From Glaciozyma antarctica PI12 (Eukaryota; Basidiomycota; Microbotryomycetes; Kriegeriales; Camptobasidiaceae), in NCBI GenBank assembly GCA_002917775.1, contig KZ627149.1, positions 874,673 through 938,672 of the forward strand: a stretch of 64,000 nucleotides of DNA, written 5' to 3'. The notes beneath the pieces are model-generated. The model did not search any database, had not been told where the DNA came from, and was given only the letters and a program-made list of their open reading frames with translations. Position 1 is the first letter of the stretch. Each line of letters opens with the position of its first letter. Shown in pieces: positions 2,209 to 41,410 of the stretch. The translations under genes were made by a program, and so were the position numbers.

Positions 2209-3432
2209 ATGATCGAGATGGACCCTCAGCCAGCAGGTGAGCAATCACATCCTGATCGCGTCGACAACGCGTGTGACCTCATCTGACGCGACGTGCTCAC
2301 CCTCCAGGACCACCACCGGTGTACACGGTCGTCGCACGCGGTACCGATTTCACCCTCAGCCGCTCGCAGATCGAGTTCGACTCGCCCAACCTCTTCACGA
2401 CTGCCTTCCTGGACCACGACTTCTCGGAGGCGTCGAGCCATATTCTTCGAACGAACCACCACCCCCTGCTCTTCGCGCTTATCTAAGAGGTGCGTAACCT
2501 CAGATACGTGAGTAGGAGCTTCTTCTGTCGCGACAGGAGCAGTACCTCGCCGGCTACGACATCCTTCCCCTCCAACTCCCTGCCCTCCCTCCCTTCATGA
2601 GCGTCGAAACCGCCGCTCGCAACCTCTCCAAAGACGCCGAGTACTTCCAACTCGATCGATTGCACGCTCTCCTCAACCCTCCTCCTCCACCTCCGACTGA
2701 GGACCTCCTTTCGCGCCTCGAGACTCGAGGGTTTCCCCGTATCGTCCCTATCGAGGATCTGGAGACGGGAAAGGCGCAGCTGAAGACGAGAACGGCCGTT
2801 GCTTTGCCCAAGGAGTGGAACTCCTCGGACAACAACATGGATCTCTGCCTGGTCGAAGATTCGCTTCCTCCCTCCATCCTGATGCGAAACGTTCATCTTT
2901 GGTAAGCCTTTTCGCTTCTCTCTTCACTGCCACAAGCTTATCGCTCCAAAGCTTCAAAACCATCGACTCTCTTTGTGCCGCGGATCCCATCACTCTCGAA
3001 TTCAAGCCATACCAATCCATGTCCTTCAGCGGCGGGGCTTCGCTGGGCAACGTACCCGTCGTGGTCGCGTCCCTCAGTTTTATCACCACCGATTTCGACC
3101 AACAAGAGCCGGAAGACGCATGGAGTGGTTCGCTCCCTGCCACCATCACCATCGAAGGCGAGACGGGAACCCTCGTCGACCTGCACTTAGCGCTCGGCGG
3201 CGGCAATACCGATACCTTCAGCAGGCTTTGCGAAAGATACGCATCGAAGGTATCGGACTCAACAAGCTGGGTCTTCCTTGAAGTCGTTGCGGAGGAGCTC
3301 TACTTGATGCCGATGCCAAATGGGTGCGAATTCTCGCGCCCCGAGTACCTCACGCAGATCGGCTTTGGGTTCATCTATGCGCGGTGCAAGGTGATTGCGA
3401 CGTTTGACGCGGATACGTTCTCGAGTAGCTAG
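2209..3432 (+). CDS. BTB/POZ-like domain protein with an in-frame stop
   Basis: This resembles a fungal BTB/POZ (T1-like) family that assembles through the N-terminal domain; partners and role are unknown. The model starts at ATG 2209 with a 28-nt exon and an intron at 2237-2307. The BTB core follows, with motifs TVVARGTDFTLSRSQIEFDS and FTTAFLDHDFSEASS. A second intron begins at 2490. The chain then continues with YLAGYDILPL and MSVETAARNLSKDAEYFQLD. An intron at 2902-2951 leads to the conserved C-terminal half, which ends at TAG 3430-3432. The phases fit, except that a TAA codon (2484-2486) sits in frame two codons before the second donor, inside the expected ALI-x-EYL motif. Either the gene carries a nonsense change, the base call is wrong, or an unusual splice avoids it. 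Confidence 0.7.
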
Positions 3433-3860: not shown

Positions 3861-6800
3861 ATGGCGTCCTACGACCCCCGCCGACCTCCTCCTCCAGCAG
3901 CAGCAGAACCCGCACCTCCAGCACTCTCCGCCGCTGCGGAGCCTCTCGCGGAAGCCGCTGTTGAGGAGCCACTCGCAGCTGTCGTCGACGACCAACCTGC
4001 CGCGACCGGCGACGCCTCGCCCTTAGCGCCTGTTGGCTCGGCCATGGACGCCGCGATCGCAGCAACATTGGCTCTGCTCTCTTCAGACGGTGCAGGGCTG
4101 GAAGAGGAGGGGGGAGGAGGTGGAGGAGCTGAGAATGGGACGTCGGCGGAAGAGGAATCATCATCAGCGGCGGATGCAGTGGCAGCAGCAGCGGGAGACG
4201 GAGACGCCCCGATGAGAGACGCGACCTCTTTCTCCGCTTCGGCCTCGTTGACTGGCTCCCCCTTCCCCATCAAGACCGAGCTCTCAACTCCCTTCCCCTT
4301 CCCCGCTGCCCTCGATTCCGACCCTTCTACCCCGACCACGGCTCAGCTCTACGAAGACCCGGGACGACCTCTCAAAGCTGGAGGAGCTGCCAAGGCTGCC
4401 GCTGCGCCTCTGTCGAGAGTAGCCCAGCTGAATGCGAGAATCGAGAAGGACCCGCTCGACGGAGAGGCGCGATTGGCGCTCCTCGCTGATGCGGAGCAAA
4501 AGGGCGATTTGGAGAGGACGAGAGAGGTGTACGAAGACTTTTTGAGAGTCTTTCCTGATGCTGTGAGTGACGCCGAGAGCGGTACCCGAGAGATGGAGCC
4601 CAAACTGACGAGAGCTACCTCAGGCCCAACAATGGATCGCGTACGTCGACCTCGAGCTCTCGCACTCGTTCTTCCCGCGCGTCGAGGCTCTCTTCGCTCG
4701 CTGCCTTCGCCCCTCGCCCTCGGTCGACCTCTGGAAGTTCTACCTCGACTACATCCGTCGCGTCAACCCCGTCGACCCGTCGCTGGGCGACAGGGCCAAG
4801 GACGCGCGAGGAGTGATTGGGAAGAGCTTCGAGTTTGCGCTGGGTCACGTTGGGCAGGATCGACGAGCGGGAGACATGTGGATGGAGTACATTGCGTTCT
4901 TGAAGGAGGGACAGGTGCGTCCTTTCTCACTGGCGGTTGCGGAATGGAGCTGACGAGCGACGTGTAGAATCGCGGAACGTGGGAGGATCAGCAGCGCATG
5001 GACGCGCTTCGCAAGGCGTACCAACGAGCGGTTCAGATTCCTCTCAACAACGTCGAGCAGATTTGGCAGGAGTACAACCAGTTCGAGAACAGCATGAACA
5101 AAATGACCGTGCGTCGTCGCACTCCCTCGCTTACTCTCTCCCACTAACCACTCCTGCTTCCGTTCACCAGGCCAAGAAGTTCGTCGCTGAGCTCTCCCCC
5201 TCCTACATGACCGCGCGCAAAGTCCTTCGAGAGCTGCGCGCGCTCTACGACGCCGTTTCGACCCCTACTCTCGCTCTCCCCCGTCGTCCCGACTGGTCCT
5301 CAGACGAGGACTGCGCGAGCCTCGAGATGTGGCGCAAGTACGTCTCGTACGAGGAGGGGAACCCGCTCGACATCGAGGAGCCGATGGCGCTGCAGATGCG
5401 TGTCGCGTTTGCGTACAAGAAGGCGGTTGCGAGTCTAAGGTTCTATTCCGAGATCTGGTGAGTGTGGCTGCTGCGACGTCGCGGAAGGTGACTGACGAGT
5501 GGGGCAGGTACTTGGCGGCAAATTACAACCTCAAGCTCAGCAAGGCTGATGAGGCGCGTACGCTTCTCCAGTCTGGCATGACTGCCAATCCCTCGAGGTT
5601 CGTCTTCTTCCTTCATCGTCCAGGCCCACCTACTTATGCGTTCGCACAGCTTGCTCCTCGGATACACTCTCGCCGAACTCGAAGAAGGTCGCGGCGAGCT
5701 CCCCGCCTGCTACAAGATCTACGACGACCTCATCGTCCACTTCCACGCGCGTCTCGCCTCGCTCGAAGCTGCGACGGAGCAGGAGATCGTCGAGGCGATG
5801 GCGGCGTTCGACGCTGCGGCCGAGTTGGAGGAGCAGAAGCCTGAGCTATTGGGCTTTGGAGATGAGGAGGAGGGGAGGCAGAAGACGGTACAGGAGAAGG
5901 AGGAGGCCAAGATGGCGATTCGGAAGAAGAGGGAGGAGGAGATCAATGTCGCCAAGAGGGGGGCGGCGAACGTTTGGATCACGGAGATGAGGTTCGCAAG
6001 GCGTGCGGAGGTGAGTTCGATCTCGTGTTGAAGAAGGTGACGGGAGCTGACGAGTTTTCGACTTGCAGGGTATCAAGCAGGCTCGATCGGTGTTCACCAA
6101 GGCGAGGAAGTCTCCCTTCCTCGCGTGGCAGGTGTACGAGGCGTCTGGTACGTGCTCATCCTCTCCTTGCCTCGACGTTCGACGCTGACGAGTTTATTCG
6201 CAGCGACGATGGAGCTCCTCTGGAACAACGAGCCCAAGATTGCGACCAACATCTTCGAACTCGGCCTCAAGTCGTTCTCGCAGGATCCCGAGTACATTCT
6301 CCAGTACCTCGACTTCCTCATTCGCTCCAACAACCCTAATAGTGCGTTCTCTCCGTTTTGCGCTCTTATTGGATCCCCACTGACGCGCTCACTCGCTCCA
6401 GACGCCCGTGCTCTCTTCGAGCGAACAGTCGCCCTCGTCGAGCCTGCAAAGGCCAAGCCGGTCTGGGACCGCATGTCGCAGTATGAGTACCAGTACGGCG
6501 ACTTCCTCGCGGCGCAGAAGATTTTCCAGCGCTACTCGGAGGCGTTCCCCGAAGGTCCGCTCGCTTCTCCATCCCGTATCGTGCTCTCGCTGACTTATCT
6601 TCCTCTAGCATCTCCCATCGAGCGCTTCGCTCAGCGTCACGGCTACTTGGGCTTGGACGACGCCATCACGCAGGACCTCGGCCTCTCCATCGCTTCCACC
6701 TCTCGCGACGCCGGAGAACGTCGCTCCCGCTCCCCCTCTCCTCGCCGCCTCGGTCCCGGCAAGCGCGGTCCTTCAGTAGAGCCTCGCGACGCTTACGAGC

Positions 6801-15501: not shown

Positions 15502-18417
<2,916 letters not shown>

Positions 18418-18744
18418 GGTGAGTGCTCGAGAGGGCGAAGAGGAGGAGGGAGGGGGGGTAGCTGGAGAGGGAGCGCCGGGGTAGGGAGAGGGCGGAGGGA
18501 AGACGACGTTGAGAGGCGCGAAAAATGACTTCGAGCGAAACGAAGGTCCGAGCTCAGCTTGGCTCAACCTCAAGGCCTAACCTGCATCCTCCCTCTGAGC
18601 GAGTTGCAAAGAGTGCACGCTTCTTTTCAGCTTGGAAGCTTGTAGTCGCTCGATGGCAAGGGCGACGGCGAATCCCCTCGCTGGATGCGATGGCGGTGGC
18701 ACAAGAAATCGTATTTACAGCCTCCAATCCGACGTTGCGCGGCT
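18418..18744. other. Intergenic region
   Basis: PRP43 promoter and PUT2 3' region, both on the minus strand. No coding exon is supported here. Confidence 0.5.
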
Positions 18745-25429: not shown

Positions 25430-28400
25430 TCAGAAGCTCTCGAGAAACGACTCCAATCCCTGCTTCAGTACGACCGAACGCGCTGCGGGGCACTTCCACC
25501 TGCTCGCGAGGTCGACTTCAGCGAATTCCGAAACGAAAGCGACGGCAGACTCACCTTCGACCTCCTCTCCTCCTAAAGCCTCCTCCTCCTCGGCGAGCAT
25601 CGTCTCCAAAAACTCCCTCTTTCTCGACTCCACCTCCTCCACCTCCTCCTCCTCTTCCTCCATCCTCTCCTCGACCACCTGCTCCCCTTCCTCCTTCTCC
25701 CGCTTCGCCGCCTCGAGCTCCGCTTTGCATGTGCACTGAGCGAGCAAATGAGCGTTCTCGGAAGACTGGAAGAACTTGAGAGCTTCGAGAGCGGCGAGTT
25801 GGCGCGAGATGGTGGCGGACGAGCTGGTGTGCGATGAGATGGCGCTGTCGTGGAAAGTGCAGGTCGATTTTCGGAGACCGCCTTCGAGCATGCTGGATCT
25901 GGAAAACAAGCTGTTAGGAGATTGAGAAAGGACGTAGATGAAAAGGACGTACTTGTTGATGAGCTTGGTGCAGTGGATCGATTGGGCGAACATGACTAGG
26001 CGCGAGTGGGGGTCTCGAGTCTCGCTGCGTCAATGCGCTGCGTTAAACGGGTAGCGAAGCGGTTGAGGAAGCAGGACATACACGTCTCGAAGAAGCGGCA
26101 GCACCTCCGCGTAAGACCGGTCGAGGATATCGAAGACAGGAGCGAGCTCGAACCCAGCGTCGACTGGCGTCGAAAAGATCAGCGAAGAACGACAAGCTTC
26201 GCAGGAACGCAGACGCACCAAAAACAGCTCCCAATATTGCCTCGAAGACGTCTCCCAGCACCTTCGGAGGATCCCAAACCCACGTCAAATCCTCGAGGAC
26301 CTGCTTCCACTCGAACGAGGCAGACTCCACTGCTGCTTCCTGCATCGCAATGTCGAGAGCGGCAGAAGTGTGGAGGACGTTGCGATGCGCATCGAGAATG
26401 CGAATGGAGAGGAAGGCGAGGGCCGAGTTGCTGACGAGGAGGGCGCGGAGGAAGGAGATGTTGCGAGGGGTCGAGGTTGGGAAGAGGGCGATGAGGCGGT
26501 CGGCGGCCCAGAAGTCGAGGATAGCTAAATGAAGCAGCTCAGCAAGCTCGCTCGTAAGGCGACCAAAGAGAGATAGACGTACCATCTCCGAGAAGCTCCT
26601 CGCGCTCGTAGCAATGTGTTTCGGCAGCGGTGTACGAACGGTGCGTCAACGCCTGCAGGAGAAAGCGAGCGTTCTTGAAGCTGTAGCCGAGCTTCGCTTC
26701 GAGCAGCGCGAATCCAGGAGGGGTCGCTGCGGGTTCGCAGCGAAGTCCCCGCGCCGACGGCCTGTCCGACCAAGGCGTAGTCCCTCCGAAGCACAGTCCC
26801 AGCCGGTCCCCGGTCTCCAGCGCCATCTCGAGCCCTCCCGACAAGTACGCCGCTCCCAAAGTCGCCTTGACCATATCTGCGAGAGCGCGCCGGCCGACGT
26901 TACGAGTGATCGAAAGGCCGTCGCTGGAGAGCTGGCCGTCTTCGAGAGTCGGAGGAATCCAAGTCGAAGTTCGAAAGCGCTCAGGAAGGAGGAACGTCGC
27001 GAATCCGGTCGTCCTGGATCGTTCGCGAAGGAAGCGATTGTCGACCGAGTTTTGTCGAAGCACGGATAGGCGACCCTCGTCGAGTCCAGCGTGCTCGAGG
27101 TAGATGTGAACCGTCGTCGCCACCTGCAGGGACCATCTTCGTCAGCTCAAGCTTCGCAAGGATCCAAAGGGAAAAGCCACCTTCAGCACCGAATCTCCAA
27201 GAGTCTCGAGCGTTTGGTATTCGAAGCCCGTAAGAGCTGAGGGAGGAGTTAGGGCGCGGAGGAGGAGCGAGGTGTCGATTGAGGGAAGGTGGAAGTGCTG
27301 GATGGCGGAGTTCACGCAAACCCCATCGTGCACCAGTCGAAAGAGGGAGGGCGACATGCGGAAGACTCTCCAGAGGCTCGTCGGGAGATTGGCGAGCCTG
27401 CACATGGCAGAGGGAAAGTGGTGAATGGCTGTAGAGTGAGGAACGTTGGTCTCGGTGGCGGCGGTAGGCGTGAGGTGGTTCTGAGGGTGGGAGGGGAGAG
27501 ACCGAAGGGTGAAGATCGAGTCGGGAATGGTTTCGGAGACGTTGTGGAAGTCGTATGCGACTCTGACGTAGATGAAGTACCTCGGGTACCCTTGTAGCTT
27601 GTCGTGTCGCATGTTCAGATCGGCCTGTTGCGCTCCAGTACCGAGAACGACGTCGGAGGAGGGAGAGAGGGTCGTTGCGTCGGTGTGAATCCCGACGAAA
27701 GCGAAGAGTCGATCGGCGACGCGACGACAGGGAACGACAACGATGTCGCCTTCCGTAAGGGACGTCGTTGACACGGGCCTGAACGCCGTATCGACGGCGT
27801 TCCAGTCGATTTCGCCGTCGACTTGGAGAGGAGTCCACATCGCGTCGAGGCTGAAGTCGCGGCCGATCTTGCGATTGACGACGGCTTGAGTGCAGCTGAG
27901 ATGGAAGTCTCGAAGCTGCTCGAGGCGAGACGCTCGTTTTTTTCCGCTCCACGCAACGAGTCGCGCCGACTTGATCCGAACGACGACTTCGCGAGACGGA
28001 TCGGTGTCGAAGAGGCGGCGTTGGACGAAGGATTCGAGGTTGATCCCCGCGAGGAGACCGACCGTTGCAAGCTGTCCGCCATCGTCGAGCTCAACGGCGT
28101 GAAGCCAGATTGCGCTGCTGTCGATCCAAACGTTCCCGAACTCGTTCTTGAAGATCACTTCGACGAGCTTTGGCGTTGGTGTCGAGTCGAGATCGCGGCC
28201 GTCGGCGTCCTTGCCTCCTCCTCCCAATCGCTCCCTGCCCAGACTCGATCAGAAAACGCGCACGTCGAAAGACCTTGTGAGCGCACCTGATTGGGAGAAG
28301 ATGATCGTCAAAAGCACCGGCAGCGTGTAGCTGAACGCAGATCTCGAAGCTCGCCGCCTGCTTCGCCGCCTTCTTCGTCGCCATCGCGAATCCAACGACG

Positions 28401-30717
28401 ACCGTCTTGCTGGGAAGTGCTGCGATCATCGGCAAGCGCAGTCTCGCCATCCACTGCAGACCGACTCCCAGGATCTCGAATTCGGGTCGATGAGGCGGAG
28501 CGAAGGGGTCGGTTGAGAGGAGAGAGCAGAACTCGCTCAGGAGGGGAACGGAGCTCTGATAAGTGAGAATGGCGCCGGTGGAGGGAACGGTGTAGGTGGG
28601 GAGGTTCTCGAGTTCGGGTTCGTCGGCTTCGGTGCTAGGGCGGTCGCCGTCTGCGCGATTCCATGTCAGTTAACCGCGTCGAGTTGATCTTCGCCGACAC
28701 CTACACATCTGCTTGAGGACGGGCTCCTTCGCAACGTATTCGCGGTGGACGTTAGCCTCGAGCGAGCCTCGCTCCGCCATGACGATAAACTCGCTAAACT
28801 CGCTGAGCGCGCGCGTCCTCGCGATTGGATGTAGATGCGCATGTCAAGTTAAGACGGCGGCGACGAAAGCTCAAAAAGAGAGGGCTCACCCAGTGATCGT
28901 CTGCAGAGGATCAAAGCGGATGACCACGTTGCACGCTCGAAAGTCAAGTCCTTCCTCTGCGACTTGCGTAGCGAAAAGGATGTTCGTTTGGCCGCTGCGG
29001 AATGAAGAGACCGTCTCCGCTTGCTAGAGGGAGAACCGAGTTAGCTTCCATCAGGTGCAGCAGGCAGGACGTCGAAGGAGCTCACCTGCTTGATCTCCAT
29101 CCCCAGATCCTTCGAATAGACTTCATCGATAGCTCCTCCTCGACCTCCGTGGCCAACAAGCCACCCAGGCCTCAGCCACTCCCTCGTCTCCTCAAATCGC
29201 TCGATGATCGTCGCAAGCAGCTGGGCGTCTTGTCGACGCTGGACGAAAACGATGGCGTGGAAGTCGTCTCGGGTCCTGAATTCGTCAAGGACGGAGAGAA
29301 GCGTTACGACATGGGGAGAGAGAGTGGTCGAGTCGAGATGGGAGGCTGCGAGGCGGGTCGAAAGCTGCGAGTGGAGAGTTCCGAGCGTCGAGTGGATTTT
29401 GCCGGCGGCTTCGTGCGACGCGTCGTTCCCAAAGTATCGTCGAGATTTCTCCGAGATGAAGGATTCTAGGATGAGAGTAACGAAGAGATTGCAGCCGTAA
29501 GTGCCGAGACGCTGCGGACGCCGAAATGAGATTGGAGTCGAGCAGGTCCAGTAGAGGAAGGCCCGCACCTGCTTCGTGAGATCGATACTAGTCCATATCT
29601 TCTCGTCGAGGATGTACGCAGGAGCCAGGTTGCGGAGGGCGGTCTCGAAGAAAGTCGCCGAGGTGTACCCAAGCGAGGGCGCGAATTCGACGAGGCGCTC
29701 CTTCGGTTTGTTGGCGAAAGCGTTGATGGAGTCGAGGTGCAGCTTGACTTCGACAAGACGCGAGCAGAGGTTCTGCTCAAGCTCCCTGTGGAATCACAGA
29801 TGTCAGGAGCAGAGCGCTGACCGCTGGAACGGGATACGGACTGGATCGACTTCTCCGGTGACTTGGGGTTCCAGATAGGACTATGAGCGAGGCAGATCAG
29901 CTCTTGATGTTGCCGAGAAGAGCTGCAGAAGCGTCCGAGGCGGTCAATCCCAAAATTCGTGGCAGACGAGCACGCGGACTGCTGGCCTTGATGCGGTGGT
30001 AGTGGTCCTTCATTCTGCGAAAGCTCTCTTCAGTCAATACACGACTCGAGAAAGGCGAGAGAGTAGGCCCACATGCGGCAGTAGGGGTTGTTCTTCTTCG
30101 CATGGTGCGCCTCGTCGAAGATGAGGAGGGAGATCTGAACTTGCGAGGTCAGCAGGGGAAGCAGGAAGAGCAGGGGGGTCGATCAGAGCACCGAGGAGTG
30201 GATTGAAAGTGAGACTCACCCTCTCCATGTCCCAGTAAGCGTTGTTGAGGACGTTGAGCCAAATCTGCGCCGTGCAAACGACAACATCGGCCGCCGAAAA
30301 CTCCTTGAGCCATTCTTCCCTCTTCCAGTAGTCGACGCCCTGCGTACGAATCGTGAGCGAGCTGATCCACGCCAGGGACGAGACACTCACCATGTTCCCC
30401 GCGAAGCCTTTAACGCGCAGATTCGTCTGGCTGGCGATAGCGGCAGACTGTTGAGTGACCAAGTTAACCGTTGGGACAATAACGACGATGAGCTTTGGCG
30501 GGTCGCTAGGAGAGACTGGGAGAGAAGTCGTGTGGCGAATGACCATGATAGCCACGAGCGTCTTCCCCGTCCCCGTATCCATGCGAACCTGGCGAAGCGT
30601 CAGCTCCGAGCTCAAGCGCCTCCAAGTTGCAGGACTGACGATGGATTTGCGCCGCACGGCGTGCTCCACCACCTCGGCCTGGTACAAGCGGGGGAGGAGG
30701 AGAACCGGGTCACTCAT
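25430..30717 (-). CDS. Dicer-like RNase III with apparent lesions
   Basis: Dicer cuts double-stranded RNA into small RNAs for RNA interference. Domains run in order. The N-terminal helicase has VRMDTGTGKTLVAIMVIRH (Walker A), LLIFDEAHHAKKNNPYC (DEAH) and RILGLTAS. The C-terminal helicase has NILFATQVAEEGLDFRACNV and motif VI YIQSRGRAR. DUF283 follows (YTVPSTGAILTYQ... to LPIRERLGGG), then a long PAZ-position region (about 28230-27300). RNase IIIa has FEYQTLETLGDSVLKV and LSVLRQNSVDNRFLRE. RNase IIIb has LLEAKLGYSFKNARFLLQAL, EELLGDAILDFW and LGDVFEAILGAVFVDAGF. A short dsRBD-like segment (GGLRKSTCTFHDSA) and an acidic tail end the chain. Length is roughly 1,400 aa. Oddities: GG in place of the GT donor (29935-29936); AT in place of the AG acceptor (28835-28836); a one-base frame break at 28801-28815; and RNase IIIa reads LADMVKATLGA with Lys where Glu is expected (26866-26868). 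RNase IIIb keeps its acidic residues. Confidence 0.9.
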
Positions 30718-38876: not shown

Positions 38877-41410
38877 TTACAGCGGCGCCACGATCATGAT
38901 ATCCTCCTCCACAACCTCCATACGCTCCTCCACCACAGCACCCATCGCATCATCCTCCCCCTCCTCCGCCACAGTCGTCGCCCTCGCCGCGCTCGTAACC
39001 GCCGGCGGCCCCACCTCCACTTCCACAATCTCCTCCCCCTCCATCTCCCCCTCNNNNNNNNNNNNNNNNNNNNNNNNNNNNNNNNNNNNNNNNNNNNNNN
39101 NNNNNNNNNNNNNNNNNNNNNNNNNNNNNNNNNNNNNNNNNNNNNNNNNNNNNNNNNNNNNNNNNNNNNNNNNNNNNNNNNNNNGGCGGCCCCACCTCCA
39201 CTTCCACAATCTCCTCCCCCTCCATCTCCCCCTCCACCACTTCCAACGGCCTCACGGGGGGTTTCGACGAGGGAGGGATAGCGTCGGATAAGCTGGGGAT
39301 AGGGATCGTCGACCGGCGGTGAGAACGCGAGTCGCGTCGGCCGCCCGTGCCTTCGTCTTCGGAATCGGAGTATTCGTCGTCTCGCTGGATTCGCGCGTCG
39401 AGGTCGCCCACTGGGAGAGAGTCAGTGAGAGATAGGAAGGGAGAGAGAGAGAGAGAGGAAATTACCGTTTCGACGATTGTTAGGATCGCGCGAGTCCTCG
39501 TCCACATCGTCGTCTTCGTCCATCGCCGTTCTCGGGATCGCTAGAACCACTTCATCAGCTCTTGCCCTGCGCACAAACATGCAGGCTCTGCTCACGCTGC
39601 AGCTGGACACTCGGCGCGCTCCCCGTGTGCCTCAGGTTCTCAAACACCTGCGCCTTGACCTTCTCGAGGTACTCCCTCGTATTGAGGTCATCCGTGTTCG
39701 ACTGCGGTACGTCGAGCCTATACGTCGGACCAAAGTACTCGTAATACTCGTTCATCGGGATGTCTGCGCACACACGGATGAGCGGACGTAGCTATGAGAA
39801 GAGAGGGAACGTACTGGCTCCGAGCTCTTGCCCTGCTGCGAGACCAGTTTCGAAAGCCCAGGTGCGAGAGACGTTACGGATCGTGTAACCTCCGCCACCG
39901 AGGAGGAGGAGCGGGAGACCAAAGGATTTGACGAACTGGACGCAGTTGGCATGTCCTGCTCGAGTGGCGTCAGTTTGTGCGATGTCTCTGTGAAGGAGAA
40001 ACGCACCTCGCATCGAGAGGTTGAAGGTTCCGAGACGGTCGCCGGAGAGGGAGTCTCCACCACATTGGAGGACGACGGCGGAGGGACGGTACCACTCCAT
40101 GATTTGGGAGATGACCTGCGAGAATCGGCGCGTGAGCTCGAGGAACGCCAGGGACGCAGTGAGGATGACGCACAGGCTCGAAAACGCTCTTGTACGACTC
40201 GTCAGTGATCCCATCTCGTAGCGGGAAGTTGACGGCGTAGTTCTTTCCCTTTCCGTGTCCCGTATCCTGCGTTCGCGAGATCAGTTTCGGTCCTTGAAGC
40301 TGGGGTGAAATGCGTGTGCGCACCTTGATGTCTCCAGTTCCGGGGAAAAACTCTCCGTACTTGTGGAACGAGCAGGTCATCACGCGGTCGGTCGTGTAGA
40401 ACGCCTCCTCGACTCCGTCACCGTGATGCACGTCAATGTCGACGTAGAGGACGCGGGGGTGGTAGCGCAGCAGCTCGAGGATTCCCAGGACGATGTCTGC
40501 GTTCGTTTGGCGTCAAGCGAGCTCTCGGGACGAGTGGAAAGGAGGAACGAACCGTTAATGTAGCAGAACCCACTCGCCTCCGCCTTCTTCGCGTGATGAA
40601 GTCCTCCGGCCCAGTTGATCGCGATATCGCACTTGTCTCGAGAAAGACGAGCAGCACCCTCTGTGTTCAAGCACGCCATCAGTACCGCTCCTCTCGCTCC
40701 ACGCAGACCGAGCGCCTCACCCATCGACCCTCCCGCCGAAATCGAGCAGTACTCGAACAATCCATCAAACACCGGGCAGTCATCTCCCACATTGACTGCG
40801 TCCTCATCAGCTTTCCCTCCCTCTATTGCGAATGGAGAAGGAAGACTCACACTTGCCCATCTCCCTCCCAATCCCTCCCGCGCGTCCTCCCCCTCCTCCC
40901 TCCGCCGCCGCCTCAACTAAATCCGGCGTGACGCGCGAAAGGAAGTCGACGTATTCGTCCGTGTGAAACTGGGCCATTTCCTTGCGCGTCGCGGGCTTGG
41001 CGCGCTGTCGGCGTCGAAGGGAGGTTAGCTCGTTTCAAGAGGAGCAAGGAGGGACGAACGAAGATCTCCATCTTCTTGTAGAGGCCGTAGTTCATTACGA
41101 GCGAGTGGGTCATCCTGTGCGCGAGAAGGCGTCAGTGGCTGAGCTGGGATAGCCGGGAGGAGGGGGAGGAGCTCACCTGATTCGGTGAGGCTTCATAGGG
41201 TGACCTGGGGAGAGCAGCGTTAGTCACGTTCCTCCTACCTAGCGTAAAGAGCACTGACCAGGAGAGTAGTGGTAGTTCCCAATGTCTGCAGAGGAGAGTC
41301 AGCGACGGCGTCTTGCGTCTTGCGGTGGAGCTCTTGAACGAACCCGAGTCGAAGAAGTAGCAGGTTCGCTTCTTGCGCTCCCCTGCGATAGGACTCATGA
41401 TTCCCGCCAT
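38877..41410 (-). CDS. RPD3: Class I histone deacetylase (Rpd3/Hos2 type)
   Basis: This zinc-dependent deacetylase removes acetyl groups from histone tails in co-repressor complexes. Conserved blocks are [116 protein letters not shown] (active-site His pair), [19 protein letters not shown] (zinc Asp/His), [55 protein letters not shown] (transition-state Tyr) and [20 protein letters not shown]. There is a Gly/Ala-rich insertion before FNVGDD. The acidic C-terminal tail contains a 131-N gap at 39054-39184. Rpd3 is favoured over Hos2 on overall sequence pattern, but the symbol is not certain. Start ATG 41410; stop at 38877. Confidence 0.92.
39054..39184. other. Assembly gap (131 Ns) flanked by identical 50-mers
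   Basis: The 50 bases before the Ns (39004-39053) and the 50 after (39185-39234) are the same sequence, starting GGCGGCCCCACCTCCACTTC. Both encode [16 protein letters not shown] on the minus strand. This looks like two contig ends that overlap and were never merged. Confidence 0.85.

Follow-up and report, generated by a model that had tools for sequence, protein, structure and literature searches.

Splice-site faults and a frame break in a Dicer-like gene of Glaciozyma antarctica PI12, weighed against errors in essential genes of the same assembly

We analysed a Dicer-like gene in a stretch of 64,000 nt from the yeast Glaciozyma antarctica PI12 (assembly GCA_002917775.1, contig KZ627149.1, positions 874,673 to 938,672 of the forward strand). 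This stretch is called the window, and positions refer to it unless another locus is named. In the assembled letters the gene, the C4 Dicer, has the domain order of a Dicer and carries three defects, two at splice sites and one in the reading frame; further genes for RNA interference (RNAi) are present in the genome, and essential genes of the same assembly carry lesions as well. The reading frame is broken under conserved splicing and open under cryptic splicing, and assembly errors occur nearby, in Prp43. Compared with the assembly background the splice defects are enriched (p = 0.014), while the frame break occurs at the background rate. We favour, at about even chances, the view that the defects are sequence error in an intact gene. 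We hold error likelier than inactivation because the breaks in essential genes prove that error occurs in this assembly. Both simple readings, error and decay, are strained.

The gene extends from the ATG at 30717 to the stop at 25430 on the minus strand, as established by an open reading frame and splice model, Pfam and comparison with PDB; its features given below lie on the same strand. Pfam finds DEAD/ResIII, Helicase_C, Dicer_dimer and two RNase III domains in the same order as in Dicer, and Dicer chains in PDB, including plant DCL1 (7eld), match the gene. Both helicase halves are present in the DNA (PF00270, 73.3 bits; PF00271, 60.6 bits), and the DExD/H helicase motifs I, II, III, V and VI are all encoded, in the usual numbering. 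Dicer_dimer (DUF283) is located at 28286..28552 (74 bits in the genome profile search, 71.9 bits by Pfam). The RNase III domains follow in tandem (PF00636, two stretches, 105.3 bits), RNase IIIa at 26833..27129 (39.1 bits) and RNase IIIb at 26220..26525 (36.9 bits). The catalytic acidic residues of RNase IIIb are conserved as a full set, and the last Glu of RNase IIIa is replaced by Lys (codon AAG, 26866..26868): its ALADMVKATLGA stands opposite TLADVVEALIGV of Arabidopsis DCL1, and Glu is found in C3 and C16, the two paralogs described below. No PAZ domain or double-stranded RNA-binding domain (dsRBD) was matched by Pfam at E 0.001; the PAZ model fails on most fungal Dicers (excerpted text of PMC12663654).

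With the splicing proposed in an earlier sequence-only reading of this DNA, the conserved frame is open for 460 codons from the ATG and then breaks, with the first stop after 531 codons. The open part holds GTGKT, DEAHH, LTAS and YIQSRGRAR, the remainder past the break is open down to the stop at 25430, no in-frame stop was found in the exons outside the faults, and the other 15 of the 17 introns are GT-AG. The two faulty introns are located at helicase motifs III and VI. Behind the exon with LTAS (motif III; 29937..30014), which has 78 nt, a multiple of three, and could be skipped with the frame preserved, GG replaces the expected GT donor at 29935..29936 (CTC/GGACGC, the slash marking the boundary); this intron (29936-29881) has CATAG as acceptor. 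In front of YIQSRGRAR (motif VI), AT replaces the expected AG acceptor at 28835..28836 (GCGCAT/CTA), and the donor of that intron is GTGAGC at 28889. The frame break follows just past YIQSRGRAR, at 28801..28815, in a GC run adjoining a 9-base tandem repeat and within about 35 bases of the AT. The sequence-only reading had named the Dicer with its helicase, DUF283, RNase IIIa and RNase IIIb blocks as well as these three defects; Pfam and the Dicer chains bear out the former, the letters the latter. Since LTAS and YIQSRGRAR are themselves undamaged in the DNA, no old event has taken place at this gene. The coding score per base of its exons outside the faults is not lower than in the paralogs (0.062 versus 0.045 and 0.038). 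A hidden second haplotype was rejected, as the 1411 bases spanning them match themselves only.

As to the assembly, the PI12 genome was built from 454 reads and Sanger fosmid reads with Newbler 1.1 and comprises 20.03 Mb in 21 scaffolds, the largest of 2.28 Mb, with 60% G+C (from the available part of PMC5791967). As controls we used 12 conserved genes, whose coding sequence totals 24,206 bases and whose models contain 122 introns. They comprise three of the 16 gene models of the window (Prp43, Rpd3 and P5C dehydrogenase (P5CDH), Prp43 having been flagged as broken before selection), four of nine further DEAH loci (Prp16, Prp22, Prp2 and a DHX35-like gene), and five of ten Cpn60/TCP1 loci, picked from a table that showed stops ahead of reading the sequence. 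The names Prp43, Prp16, Rpd3 and P5CDH come from comparisons made in this analysis, while Prp22, Prp2 and DHX35-like are presumed identities; these last three and the TCP1 controls were judged by eye, without alignment to references. A mitochondrial-looking RNase III protein whose frame breaks next to an A homopolymer (L032, about 2077) stands outside the control count because it was found as an RNase III match.

A one-base frame break was present in 3 of the 12 controls (Prp43, Prp16 and Prp22), or in 2 of 11 (21.8 kb) if Prp43 is omitted. Prp43 (15502..18587, minus strand) breaks near 16476 (16470-16485), after EGNLTP. It is a single-copy gene, with no second Prp43 in the genome, and aligns over residues 3-720 of 723 with a Prp43-type helicase of known structure, the alignment showing a gap where the frame breaks; this break is almost surely an assembly error. 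The break in Prp16 (L055, about 1560-1575) follows FMTG and lies inside a patch of several changed bases, and that in Prp22 (L055, about 6306-6312) precedes SLGPKVP. No break was seen in the alignments of Rpd3, which has one 12-residue insertion, and P5CDH, which has small gaps. Prp43, Prp16 and Prp22 are essential. A living yeast needs such genes intact, and therefore the assembly errs, and does so beyond homopolymers alone. The sequence-only reading had pointed to lesions in unrelated genes of the window and had held that sequencing error must be excluded, which the breaks in the three essential genes do not allow.

Exons and introns were modelled by a home-made decoder trained on the window and on L024-L033. 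In these sequences the model introns are short (median 55 nt), with donors GT[G/A][C/A]GT and acceptors CGCAG. Some lesions are hidden by the decoder in cryptic introns: its model of the C4 Dicer displays no lesion at all, and a 203-nt intron masked the fault of the C3 Dicer. For this reason breaks were confirmed by eye against conserved sequence. Inspection by eye of the long introns in the control models L056, L057 and L061 revealed no hidden fault, and the odd first intron of the L060 control model conceals a short exon.

A search with domain profiles over 19.98 Mb in 18 contigs identified, in addition to the C4 Dicer, two more Dicers (C3 and C16), four Argonautes with a Piwi domain and three RNA-dependent RNA polymerases (RdRPs). 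The C4 and C16 Dicers are sisters (48% identity in the RNase III pair), and C3 is more distant (31%). The C3 Dicer has motif I, DECH, LTASPLN, YVQSRGRARR, all catalytic residues and GT-AG model introns, its N-terminal end being outside the stretch read. Its conserved helicase exon NTSLRVGKAFGAAGVNLSSTAEWSWNFSNYEH is buried in the 203-nt model intron (L024, about 200-290), and none of the three GT/GC-AG introns between NTSLRVGKAFGAAGVNLSSTAEWSWNFSNYEH and LVVTAQ joins in frame, so that the C3 Dicer carries one fault. In the C16 Dicer (L025, 2630-6529), Pfam finds no domains but Helicase_C and the RNase III pair; the RNase III residues are intact and motif VI is degenerate, and the 2.7 kb read upstream showed neither motif I nor motif II in its plus-strand frames. 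The C16 gene has three frame breaks, one of them at a T run. None of the three Dicers is thus free of faults in the assembly. Among the Argonautes, L026 has two frame breaks (about 3320-3400, minus strand), one at an 8-base tandem repeat and a second in the PIWI domain, and in L028 the frame slips by one base within a GC run (about 4275, minus strand), all read by eye; no fault was seen in L027. Candidate breaks in the RdRP L031 and a stop in L030 were unconfirmed and left out of the counts. In total, 9 fault sites were counted in 10 RNAi genes (30.8 kb): two in C4, one in C3, three in C16, two in L026 and one in L028.

If the C4 defects are errors, they would amount to a lone wrong base at 29935 plus a faulty patch that spans both the AT and the frame break, and the multi-base patch in Prp16 is of the kind needed for the latter. 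The gene would then be an ordinary second-clade Dicer with helicase, Dicer_dimer, RNase IIIa and RNase IIIb, probably intact in the living yeast, and would supply the Argonautes and RdRPs encoded by this genome with small RNAs diced from double-stranded RNA. Both the errors at these particular letters and the dicing function are what we infer. For a gene of this length the control rate predicts 0.53 frame breaks, with a probability of 0.41 for at least one (0.39 and 0.32 without Prp43). Several observations weigh against error. The same rate gives a probability of only 0.10 for at least two breaks (0.06 without Prp43) and 0.017 for at least three (0.0075). Two of the three C4 defects look like base substitutions, and 454 sequencing rarely makes substitution errors. 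The exchange of Glu for Lys in RNase IIIa is an additional substitution at a near-invariant site. Introns other than GT-AG or GC-AG were found in 0 of 122 cases in the controls versus 2 of 17 in the C4 Dicer (Fisher p = 0.014; 0.017 without Prp43), a test weakened by a control decoding that favoured GT-AG and GC-AG introns; a single control intron, in L060, is GC-AG. Finally, faults per kb amount to 0.29 in the RNAi genes versus 0.12 in the controls, a difference that is not significant (P 0.15; 0.10 without Prp43).

Real and recent inactivation of one of three Dicers is possible but, in our judgement, unlikely. The splice changes and the frame break would then exist in the strain, and the other Dicers would sustain RNAi. 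Substitution-type defects at two splice sites, as against none in the 122 control introns, argue for this, as do the Lys at the catalytic Glu position of RNase IIIa and the presence of two further Dicers in the genome. However, neutral decay should yield stops and indels first, and two splice defects plus one frameshift would make up the first three lesions with a probability of 0.007-0.044 at an indel to substitution ratio of 0.05-0.3. Moreover, the other exons have no in-frame stop, and essential genes show frame breaks too. Decay had been the proposal of the sequence-only reading. Its Dicer identity and all three defects stand, and this one gene may be decaying, but the recent loss of RNAi that it considered is not shown: the search for Argonaute and RdRP genes that it suggested yielded four and three loci, respectively, and further Dicers are present, though several of these genes have frame breaks.

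The changes could also be real in a gene that is in use, which we consider improbable. The LTAS exon would be skipped and a downstream acceptor used, resulting in a Dicer of about 1400 codons that lacks motifs III and VI and retains Dicer_dimer and both RNase III domains. The decoder indeed returned a single open model of 1420 codons with 15 GT-AG introns, which omits the LTAS exon and YIQSRGRAR, reads the short first intron as coding and gains 11 residues from the intron preceding the LTAS exon. An in-frame AG acceptor (CTCAG, log-odds 3.5) lies 32 nt beyond the AT, and the resulting alternative GT-AG intron (28803..28889) removes motif VI and keeps the frame. The length of the LTAS exon is in line with such skipping, as is the fact that the helicase holds both faults. 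Support also comes from the sister C16, which has Helicase_C only, with motifs I and II not found upstream and motif VI unclear, and from the basidiomycete Dicers of clade Ba2 that have no helicase or HeliC only (parts of PMC12663654). On the other hand, the first bypass donor chosen by the model is weak (GTC/GTGTAT, score 0.5), the Lys in RNase IIIa would weaken dicing, and the skipped motifs are intact in the DNA, so that any bypass could only have arisen very recently. Slightly more doubtful still is the wider case of a Dicer in the act of shedding its helicase, in which the sister C16 of this polar yeast is already without the N-terminal helicase half and motif VI, and two splice-site changes, bypassed in frame, have only recently cost C4 its motifs III and VI, while its Dicer_dimer and RNase III domains continue to be used. 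We keep this case because the same domain is lost from C16 and basidiomycete Dicers with a reduced helicase are known (same parts of PMC12663654).

RNAi as a whole might be relaxed or in the course of being lost in this lineage, for which we see little likelihood. Faults occur in all three Dicers and in the Argonautes L026 and L028, and 9 sites in the 10 RNAi genes stand against 3 in the 12 controls (24.2 kb). Yet this excess is not significant (P = 0.15), the RNAi genes received closer visual scrutiny than the controls, and essential genes carry such breaks as well. Furthermore, the RdRP motif DxDGD is whole in the three RdRP models, and L027 is without fault. Splicing of GG-AG and GT-AT introns by this yeast, which would make two of the defects no defects at all, is very improbable: apart from the two dinucleotides, everything agrees with the intron consensus of the genome (position weight matrix), but such a site is needed in none of the 122 control introns and the frame break would persist.

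Compared with known systems, the C4 Dicer shares the order DEAD/ResIII, Helicase_C, Dicer_dimer, RNase IIIa and RNase IIIb with canonical Dicer, plant DCL1 (PDB 7eld) and other fungal Dicers, and differs from canonical Dicer and DCL1 by the missing Pfam match to PAZ and dsRBD, the Lys in RNase IIIa, and the two splice faults and frame break in the assembled DNA. Undetectable PAZ and dsRBD, as in C4, define the commonest class of non-canonical fungal Dicers (non-canonical D, 62.7%), and HeliC-only Dicers belong mainly to clade Ba2 of the basidiomycetes (excerpts of PMC12663654); C16 is alike, whereas C4 encodes the full helicase. A Dicer gene with disabling letters is shared with reported fungal losses of RNAi (PMC3554617, PMC4778953, in the passages available); unlike in those cases, further Dicer, Argonaute and RdRP loci remain in G. 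antarctica. In Microbotryum lychnidis-dioicae Dicer, Argonaute and RdRP are likewise all present, with one Dicer versus the three Dicer loci of G. antarctica (PMC4469406, available passages). Among papers pairing the genus name with Dicer or RNAi, in the text available from them, no literature on RNAi in Glaciozyma was found, and the words "RNAi", "RNA interference", "pseudogene" and "splice" are absent from the main text of the PI12 genome paper (PMC5791967).

Some further observations concern the window and the genome at large. The window contains a run of 131 N (39054-39184), in an assembly described as gap-free. Thirteen exon-level matches to ice-binding proteins (PF11999) were found on C5, C12, C16 and C17, forming three clusters on C5 and three on C16; for PI12, scaffold 5 is described as bearing three antifreeze genes side by side and scaffold 16 as bearing another three (available part of PMC5791967). 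An origin from Rhodotorula was rejected, as the ice-binding genes agree with Glaciozyma and a search for an aromatic ammonia-lyase, an enzyme that Rhodotorula possess, found none.

Losses of RNAi in fungi are inferred from gene lesions of this kind. Since essential genes of the same assembly are similarly lesioned, a claim of RNAi loss drawn from the PI12 assembly would be unsafe. If the lesions are real, the C4 locus would show a Dicer whose helicase is shed and whose nuclease half is retained.

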